From Candidatus Neoruminococcus faecicola (lineage in GTDB: Bacteria > Bacillota > Clostridia > Oscillospirales > Ruminococcaceae): 48,504 bases of DNA. The stretch lies in contig CAJFPC010000001.1 of the NCBI GenBank assembly GCA_904398325.1, positions 1 to 48,504 on the forward strand, given 5' to 3'. Of this stretch, positions 23,350 through 26,133 are shown in pieces. A model generated the notes under the pieces. That model saw only the letters and a list, made by a program, of their open reading frames with translations. It was not told the origin of the DNA and made no database searches. Position 1 is the first letter of the stretch. Every line of letters begins with the position of its first letter. The translations under genes and the position numbers were made by a program.

Positions 23350-23377
23350 GGAGCCCGTTTTCCGGGCTCCTTTTTTT
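23350..23377 (+). terminator. Terminator after ychF
   Basis: GAGCCCG and CGGGCTC pair around a short loop and are followed by seven T. Confidence 0.9.
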
Positions 23378-23465
23378 GCGCCCGAGTATTGCGTGTGCGC
23401 AACGATATAAAGAGGGAAAATTAGATGATTTTTCCTGTATGTCCTATTTTGTCCCGCCTTTATTG

Positions 23466-23494
23466 TTGCGAATACACAACACTTGTGGTAGAGT
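23466..23494 (+). promoter_or_regulatory. Candidate promoter of the small-protein/sigma-like pair
   Basis: TTGCGA (23466-23471), 17 bases, TAGAGT (23489-23494). An inverted repeat TTGCG-4-CGCAA lies upstream at 23389-23402 and might be an operator. Confidence 0.35.
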
Positions 23495-23524
23495 GGAGCC
23501 ATCCCAAGGAAAGGAGGCCCTGCC

Positions 23525-23752
23525 ATGCTGCCCCATCCCCTGGCGGAGGAATACCGCCAATCCGCCCTGCTGGTGCGCCGCCGCCTGGAAGAGCTGCGCC
23601 GCCAGCCCTGCCCCGCGGGGGAAGACCCCGGCCGCCGGGAGCGGCGCTGCGCCCTGCTGCAGGAGGAATATTACGAGCTGCTCCGGCTTTACCGCCATCT
23701 GGCGGCTTATTACCGCACCGAGGAGGAACGCCGTGAAACCGCTGTACTTTGA
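23525..23752 (+). CDS. Small helical protein paired with a sigma-like regulator
   Basis: The 75-residue protein is rich in Arg, Glu, Leu and Tyr and is predicted to be nearly all helical (two amphipathic stretches, about 8-28 and 38-66). I recognise no family. It has an excellent ribosome site (AAGGAGG, seven-base spacer to ATG 23525), so it is very likely translated. Its last 20 bases overlap the next gene, whose Shine-Dalgarno lies inside this frame, so the two are coupled. A role as partner or antagonist of the sigma-like protein is a guess from position. Confidence 0.65.
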   Translation: MLPHPLAEEYRQSALLVRRRLEELRRQPCPAGEDPGRRERRCALLQEEYYELLRLYRHLAAYYRTEEERRETAVL

Positions 23753-24047
23753 CCACTTCGACCGGGTGGCCGCCCCCGGCGCCCCAGCGGAGGACAACCG
23801 CGCTCTGCTGGCGCTGAGCCGGCGGCTGATCCGCGGGGGGATGACACTGCTCACTCCCCTGCAGCGCCAAACGCTGCAATGGTATTATTTTGAGGGGCGC
23901 ACCATCCGCGAAATCGCCGCCCTGCGGGGCTGCTGCCCCTCCACTGTCTCCCGCAGCTTAAAAAGCGCCCGGCTGCGGCTGCACTTTCTGGTGGAGGCCG
24001 CCCGCAGAAGCGGCCTGTTGGAGGAGGAAGGCCCCCGGCTGCCCTGA
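23733..24047 (+). CDS. Sigma-70 region 4-like DNA-binding protein
   Basis: The 104-residue product resembles sigma region 4: LLTPLQRQTLQWYYFEGRT, IREIAALRG and STVSRSLKSARLRL form the helix-turn-helix. There is no region 2, so it cannot work as a complete sigma factor. Such proteins either pair with a separate region 2 protein or act as regulators. The start is GTG 23733 with GGAGG seven bases upstream. It overlaps the 75-residue gene. The wider open frame back to 23376 is not supported. Confidence 0.75.
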   Translation: MKPLYFDHFDRVAAPGAPAEDNRALLALSRRLIRGGMTLLTPLQRQTLQWYYFEGRTIREIAALRGCCPSTVSRSLKSARLRLHFLVEAARRSGLLEEEGPRLP

Positions 24048-24172: not shown

Positions 24173-25282
24173 ATGGAACAAACATTTTTTATGCCTGTCA
24201 AGGTGATCGCCGCCGAGGGCGCCATTGCACGCAACGCGGAGGAATTCACCAAGCTGGGCCGCCGCGCCCTGATTGTCACCGGCAAAACCAGCGCCAAAAA
24301 ATGCGGCGCACTGGATGACGTCACCAGCGTATTGAAGGCAGCCGGCATCTCCTATGTGATCTACGACGAGATCACCCAGAACCCGATGCTTTCCGCCTGC
24401 AAAAAGGGCGGCGATATCGCCCGGCAGGAGAAGGTGGATTTCATCATCGGCATCGGCGGCGGCTCCCCGCTGGACGCCACCAAGGCCATCGCCATCTTCG
24501 CCGCCAACGACATGCCGGAGGAGGAAATCTTCGCCCTCAGCTGGCCCAACCATGCCCTGCCCTACATCCTGGTGGGCACCACCGCCGGCACCGGCAGCGA
24601 GGTGACCCCCTACGCCGTGCTGACGGTGGACCGCACCGGCCTCAAGCGCTCGGTGGGCCATCCCCAATGCTATGCCAACGCCGCCATCAGCGACCCGCGC
24701 TACACCGATTCCCTGCCGCGGGAGTTCACCCTTTCCACCGCGCTGGACGCTCTTTCCCACTCGATCGAGGGGTATTTTGCCAGCACAGCCAACGGCTTCA
24801 GCGACCTGTTCGCCGCCGAGGCCATCTGCATCATTTACCATACCCTTTACCCCATCGTTTACGATCATCGGGAGCTTTCCCCCGCCGACCGGGATCAGCT
24901 GTATCTGGCCTCGCTGTATGCCGGCGTCACCATTGCCAAAACCGGCACCTCCTACTGCCACTCGGTGGGGTATTTCCTGACAGAGGATTACCACATCCCC
25001 CACGGCTATGCCTGCGCCGTCTACCTGCCGGATTATCTGATGCGCGGCGCCGCTTATCTGCCCGAAAAGGCACAGGCGCTGTTCGGGCGGCTGGGTGCCA
25101 GCGCCGAGGGGCTGGCCAAGCTGATCCAGGATGCCACCCCCGCCATGAACCTGCTGCTCAGCGACGCACAGATCGAAGCGCTTTCCGCCCGGTGGGCCGG
25201 CAACCCTGCCTCGCTGGCAAAGGCGCCCGGCAATTTCACGGTGGAAGATGCCAAAGCGTTGGTGCGCAAGCTGTTCCAGTGA
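24173..25282 (+). CDS. Iron-containing alcohol dehydrogenase
   Basis: A 369-residue group III dehydrogenase. The NAD(P)-binding GGGSPLD lies at 95-101. The metal ligands are in their usual places: Asp192 and His196 (DALSH), His263 (CHSVGY) and His277 (HIPHG). Family members reduce aldehydes or oxidise alcohols and diols during fermentation; the substrate is not readable from sequence. ATG 24173 has GAGG nine bases upstream. It is monocistronic, with its own promoter and terminator. Confidence 0.92.
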   Translation: MEQTFFMPVKVIAAEGAIARNAEEFTKLGRRALIVTGKTSAKKCGALDDVTSVLKAAGISYVIYDEITQNPMLSACKKGGDIARQEKVDFIIGIGGGSPLDATKAIAIFAANDMPEEEIFALSWPNHALPYILVGTTAGTGSEVTPYAVLTVDRTGLKRSVGHPQCYANAAISDPRYTDSLPREFTLSTALDALSHSIEGYFASTANGFSDLFAAEAICIIYHTLYPIVYDHRELSPADRDQLYLASLYAGVTIAKTGTSYCHSVGYFLTEDYHIPHGYACAVYLPDYLMRGAAYLPEKAQALFGRLGASAEGLAKLIQDATPAMNLLLSDAQIEALSARWAGNPASLAKAPGNFTVEDAKALVRKLFQ

Positions 25283-25383: not shown

Positions 25384-25414
25384 AAAACTCCCCACGCTTC
25401 CGTGAGGAGTTTTT
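25384..25414. terminator. Bidirectional terminator ending the RNA locus
   Basis: AAAACTCC.CACG and CGTG.GGAGTTTT pair around a CTTC loop. On the minus strand it follows the putative RNA gene and ends in TTTT. Confidence 0.75.
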
Positions 25415-25819
25415 GGAGAGTAATGGGGAAAACCATTACGCGCCCTATCCCGCCGCCCTTTTGCCATCCCCCGGCCTGACGGAAAAACGGCTCCCTACAA
25501 ACCGGATCGCCGTCAAAGCCGAAGGGACCAACAAAAGGGGCCAGGTGCGGAGAAAAGGAAATCCGCACAAGACGCTTCTCCGCTTGAGGCGTTCGGCAGT
25601 CTCCATCGCCTTGGCCCCGGGCTGTAAGCTGCAGCCGGGAGCCAGGGCCTGCTTTGGCCTGTTTCAGCGGCATCCAACCGGAGTTGGCTGTCTGCACCGC
25701 TTACGTGTTCGCAATCAACGCCGGTTTTCAGAGCGCTTCCTTTTCCGGAGACGGGGCCTGAGGATGAAAGCCCGCCCAGGCAGCGGCCGGCCGAGGCCGG
25801 TGCGCTTTCATCTTCTCCA
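25384..25819 (-). ncRNA. Predicted structured noncoding RNA, about 435 nt, family unknown
   Basis: This GC-rich interval has no convincing reading frame but carries a promoter and terminator on the minus strand. Several pairings are visible: GATGAAAGC/GCTTTCATC (25763-25771 with 25804-25812) enclosing CCGGCC/GGCCGG, then AGCGG/CCGCT around CCAAC-CCGG-GTTGG. Further on are GGCTG/CAGCC, GTGCGGA/TCCGCAC (25545-25551 with 25562-25568) and a longer-range GGGGCCA/TGGCCCC (25537-25543 with 25612-25618). I looked for RNase P (GAGGAAAGTCC), tmRNA and SRP motifs and found none. The downstream gene is convergent, so it is not a leader of another gene. That it is an RNA gene is inferred from promoter, structure and terminator together. 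Confidence 0.6.
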
Positions 25820-25825
25820 TGATTC

Positions 25826-25854
25826 AGTATAGCACAAATAAGTGCAAATTACAA
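25826..25854 (-). promoter_or_regulatory. Promoter of the structured RNA locus
   Basis: TTGTAA (25849-25854), 17 bases, TATACT (25826-25831) on the minus strand. The expected start is near 25819. Confidence 0.65.
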
Positions 25855-25959
25855 GATAAATTATAATGTAAATATTTATGTATTTGATCATGTAATTTAC
25901 AAAGGTATCTAATAAATGTTAAACAGGATATAATAGAAGAATGTGAAGGGGTGATTTCT

Positions 25960-26133
25960 TTGGCCTTCCGAATCAAAAAAGTAGAGTATTCCAACAAGAC
26001 ATTCCGCATGCCGAATGATTTGATTCAACTGCTGGAACACGTGGCTCAAGAAAAGCGAATTTCCCTCAACCAGCTGGTGATCCAGTGCTGCCAATATGCC
26101 TTGGAAAATCTCGAAGACGACGACGCGGAATAA
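25960..26133 (+). CDS. Small ribbon-helix-helix-like protein
   Basis: The 57-residue product has KTFRMPNDLIQLLEHVAQEK followed by RISLNQLVIQCCQYAL, the beta-helix-helix pattern of Arc/MetJ-type DNA-binding proteins, and an acidic tail. GAAGGGG (to 25951) has an eight-base spacer to TTG 25960, which is preferred. GTG 25951 is in frame but overlaps that site. It is probably a small transcription factor whose target could be the AT-rich region just upstream. Function beyond DNA binding is unknown. Confidence 0.65.
   Translation: MAFRIKKVEYSNKTFRMPNDLIQLLEHVAQEKRISLNQLVIQCCQYALENLEDDDAE

Follow-up and report, generated by a model that had tools for sequence, protein, structure and literature searches.

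Does a gene-free interval with a promoter, several predicted stems and a terminator-like hairpin encode a structured RNA of a new family? The question is raised by a locus in Candidatus Neoruminococcus faecicola, at positions 25384 to 25854 of a stretch of 48,504 nucleotides (contig CAJFPC010000001.1; hereafter, the window), which a preliminary description made from the letters alone had taken for a standalone structured RNA of about 435 nt. The promoter of this unit, which points leftwards on the minus strand, is conserved at homologous loci in related genomes, where the genes behind it are mostly those of exported or membrane proteins; in the window, the sequence behind it has no coding signal and its body has no homologues among the genomes searched. 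This evidence favours the divergent arm of a regulator module that is without its protein gene over a structured RNA family.

A divergent promoter and an adjacent regulator gene

Three features carry the first part of the argument:

25826–25854, minus strand: promoter TTGTAA-17-TATACT with a TG extended −10, conserved at homologous loci
25849–25858, minus strand: TATCTTGTAA box over the −35, conserved in the alignment, candidate operator of a ribbon-helix-helix regulator (binding predicted)
25951–26133, plus strand: gene for an Arc-like ribbon-helix-helix regulator of 60 amino acids, divergent to the predicted transcript, recognised by profile, conservation and fold comparison

The promoter given in the preliminary description is present on the minus strand (25854–25826), has an extended −10 in addition and predicts a transcription start near 25819. 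What is new is that it is the conserved divergent promoter of the adjacent Arc-like regulator gene. On the strand facing away from the regulator, 16 of the 39 homologous loci had TTGYAA-17-TANNNT upstream of the regulator gene, whereas 500 shuffled sets averaged 0.50 and never exceeded 4; as these loci are related to one another, the count measures conservation and not independent events. Spacings of 14–16 and 18 occurred at only 0–1 loci. An alignment of nine loci retained TATCTTGYAA and the TG of the extended −10 in most rows, and the box occurs once in 1.57 Mb of sequence from this genome, in which the same promoter type also stands before genes elsewhere. Judged by its conservation at homologous loci, the minus-strand promoter is real.

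A near-identical promoter (26 of 27 bases) was seen in another genome (G034, L002:1497-1530) that has no close homologue of the regulator. It was rejected as a sign of a related RNA, because an apparent acetyltransferase gene follows it.

The regulator gene has a hexamer coding score of 1.02 per codon and its product matches an Arc-like profile (E 6.5e-6), while homologues share the conserved core KTFRMP...SLNQLVIQCCQYAL. The top PDB matches of the predicted fold (mean predicted local distance difference test score, pLDDT, 78) were CdbA, Arc and CopG, all weak (E ≥ 0.098) and all of one fold. By profile match and modelled fold, then, the 60-amino-acid protein is a ribbon-helix-helix regulator. 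Its translation probably begins at the TTG at 25960 and not at the GTG at 25951, given the alignment with relatives and an upstream AAGGGG.

At a distance of 15–48 nt past the −10, most of the relatives that keep the promoter have a Shine-Dalgarno site and a gene. These genes encode BspA-type leucine-rich repeat proteins, fn3 proteins, small membrane proteins and, at one locus (L240), an exported protein of 104 amino acids, export being called from hydrophobic N-termini and not by a signal-peptide program. Of the relatives whose regulators are closer in identity, three Pygmaiobacter loci (L005, L007 and L009) and genome G172 (L240) carry exported proteins of about 100 amino acids, about the length of the unit in the window; the Pygmaiobacter proteins (95–126 amino acids) are encoded farther downstream and seem to be read from a second promoter. 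Although most promoter-bearing relatives have a divergent gene for an exported or membrane protein, the window has none: no Shine-Dalgarno site, reading frame or hydrophobic N-terminus follows its promoter.

Ten loci (L004, L006, L008, L010, L240–L243, L246 and L247) have Arc-like ribbon-helix-helix genes head to head with genes for exported, surface or membrane proteins. This arrangement behind a conserved divergent promoter is possibly an undescribed regulator module, one that in this bacterial family serves exported and surface proteins (BspA-type repeats, fn3).

Coding potential, folding and homologues of the interval

Behind the promoter, the following features were delineated:

25384–25819, minus strand: predicted transcript of about 435 nt, with no coding signal by hexamer scores or by frame and profile searches
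25384–25413, minus strand: terminator-like hairpin of 13 bp with an interrupted U-tract (fold z −5.6), absent from the terminator scan list
25440–25575, minus strand: branched hairpin of 136 nt, the sole body segment that folds better than its shuffles (z −5.0)

The non-coding interval lies between adh, an iron-type alcohol dehydrogenase gene (24173–25282, plus strand), and the regulator gene. Hexamer scoring, with a model trained on 1.57 Mb of this genome, detected no coding signal in any of the six frames between these two genes (0.53 per codon in the best 120-nt window, where genes average 1.54), and no open frame of the interval matched Pfam, NCBIfam or PHROG, which bears out the earlier view of the interval as gene-free. 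Minus frame 0 has a run of 111 codons free of stops (25516–25848) with no ATG, GTG or TTG near the promoter, and an ATG frame of 30 codons begins at the predicted transcript start. A tblastn match to locus L242 (E 1e-4 against this region alone, with composition correction off) was discounted, as the matching stretch extends past the terminator. With 62% G+C against 60% for the genome, the interval is not specially GC-rich, as it had been called.

The stems of the preliminary description, including the long-range one, appear in the predicted fold, in which a 6-bp helix (25819–25814 with 25419–25414) closes the structure. The terminator fared less clearly: the hairpin is there, and termination at it is plausible but not certain, because its U-tract (UUUUAUUAU) is interrupted and the hairpin is missing from the list of the terminator scan. 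Including this hairpin, the full stretch folds with z −6.1; without it, the minus strand reaches a z of about −4 and the plus strand, which thus folds no worse, −4.4 to −4.7. Apart from the 136-nt hairpin, the body segments, including the 5′ 250 nt, did not exceed their shuffles (z −1.1 and −1.6); the segments were picked after the fold had been seen, which makes their z-values optimistic. For long intergenic gaps across this genome, the mean z was −1.8 (standard deviation 2.0), and 21 of 171 values, the candidate's two included, were ≤ −4; these values come from part of the gaps, as defined by simple gene calls. About one tenth of this genome's long gaps therefore fold as well as the candidate, six of those at z ≤ −4 holding tRNAs and several others having neither a tRNA nor an Rfam match, so that fold strength alone does not single out the locus.

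In agreement with the original assignment to no recognised family, for which a search of Rfam including raiA, OLE, ROOL, 6S and RNase P had been proposed, covariance models gave no match to the interval at the gathering score and only chance-level matches at permissive thresholds. Signatures of RNase P, transfer-messenger RNA (tmRNA) and the signal recognition particle (SRP) RNA are likewise absent, tmRNA and SRP being excluded for the window itself. A missed copy of RNase P or 6S was rejected, since both were found elsewhere in the genome, RNase P twice and a 6S-like RNA that scored under the cut-off of its family. The presence of two class A RNase P RNA genes (G000:C28:20665-21009, L075, 268 bits; G000:C71:61094-61449, L076, 257 bits) is unusual for a bacterium and possibly reflects a chimeric assembly.

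Sequence searches of 100 and then 397 genomes of the family returned no relative of the body, the matches being either to the promoter end or short and chance-like, and the body found none at E 1e-4 in 394 genomes of the order; the samples overlap in part. A covariance model built on the single sequence of 25416–25586 had no match in 298 family genomes, under stricter filters and with low power for distant relatives. The body is thus known from one sequence, in a genus represented by one genome in our set, and the homologues in several genomes that would mark a novel structured RNA class were not found. A repeat or mobile element was also rejected: the 1.57 Mb of genome sequence holds a single copy of the interval, phages gave no match and plasmids one chance match of 26 nt. 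Two 24-mers of the interval had no exact match in viral contigs.

The preliminary description had held that a lack of conservation in relatives would remove its claim; that lack applies to the RNA body and not to the promoter. A standalone minus-strand unit thus stays plausible, its promoter being conserved, while a structured RNA, with no conserved homologue and with folding like that of other gaps in the genome, is not supported.

Explanations for the locus

The explanation that we prefer, to which we give about an even chance, is that an intact, regulated promoter transcribes an orphan, probably non-coding sequence after the loss or replacement of an exported-protein gene. The Arc-like protein would probably bind the AT-rich intergenic region that includes the TATCTTGYAA box, and once bound would repress both its own gene and the divergent promoter on the minus strand. 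That promoter mostly expresses an exported or membrane protein in relatives; here, the protein gene would have been lost or replaced, and the intact promoter would now transcribe an orphan sequence of about 435 nt ending near the hairpin at 25384, most likely without conserved RNA function. Several points weigh against this account. A four-sequence profile of the exported proteins of about 100 amino acids had no match in the interval or elsewhere in the genome sequence, by which a detectable remnant of a decayed gene was rejected, and for want of such a remnant the loss is inferred from relatives only. At spacings of 12 and 19, too, the motif is commoner than in shuffles (10 and 5 loci), which probably reflects the many repeated words of the region, and repeated operator-like words may thus account for part of the promoter-conservation signal. 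Given the second promoter in Pygmaiobacter, the conserved one may be kept for other reasons. The 3′ domain clearly outfolds its shuffles, promoter and a good terminator-like hairpin are both intact, more than a relic in decay would require, and with one genome for the genus a lineage-specific constraint is possible.

The last points would equally suit a functional, lineage-specific small RNA, in which the regulator controls a non-coding RNA of about 435 nt whose 136-nt 3′ hairpin acts in trans on mRNAs or a protein. This is a serious contender, if on the unlikely side: in its favour are a conserved promoter of its own, the terminator-like hairpin and folded 3′ domain and the lack of coding signal, as well as a convergent adh gene with its own terminator-like hairpin, but it has to contend with a body that has no relative in the family and order genomes and no covariance match, with gaps that fold equally well and with a 5′ part of 250 nt that is not unusually structured. 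A more specific version, that a repressor of a surface-protein gene in relatives now commands a new structured regulatory RNA of about 435 nt born under the inherited regulated promoter, we regard as rather improbable. Were the promoter-like sequence merely the regulator's operator, with no leftward transcription and ordinary intergenic hairpins for stems, the overlap of the conserved box with the −35 and the degenerated hexamers beside a kept box region in Pygmaiobacter L005 and L009 would be accounted for; the 17-nt spacing and extended −10, conserved as such, and the same promoter type before other genes of this genome make this quite improbable. Least of all do we expect a short, fast-evolving or frameshifted exported-protein gene still in the interval, even though relatives carry such proteins at this place and the 111-codon and 30-codon frames offer it room, since hexamer scores are non-coding in six frames, profiles find no match and both a Shine-Dalgarno site and a hydrophobic N-terminus are lacking.

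Surroundings and comparison with known systems

Beyond the 3′ end of the regulator gene lie tuf, fusA, rpsG and rpsL, all on the minus strand (the last three named from their sequences). The loci downstream of tuf in 29 family relatives have neither the regulator gene, adh nor the interval. Further left in the window, at 23376–24047, one frame matches sigma-70 region 4 and another has a strong coding signal (23525–23752); a sigma-like gene that is frameshifted or in two parts may lie here.

The case shows that a promoter, stems and a terminator in a single genome do not make an RNA family; if the transcript is functional, it would exemplify the birth of a non-coding gene under a promoter that was inherited. 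Like the large standalone RNAs OLE, ROOL, GOLLD and raiA, the locus has a long non-coding interval, its own promoter and a terminator-like hairpin, but it differs from them in having no Rfam match at permissive thresholds and no homologues and in being known from one sequence. It shares a long gene-free intergenic region with the candidates of the GC-IGR pipeline (PMC11109978), from which its single-sequence body sets it apart. With Arc/CopG-type autoregulators that have a divergent target, it has in common a small ribbon-helix-helix protein and a conserved box in an AT-rich region before a divergent promoter, whereas here the divergent target is non-coding and binding by the regulator is a prediction.
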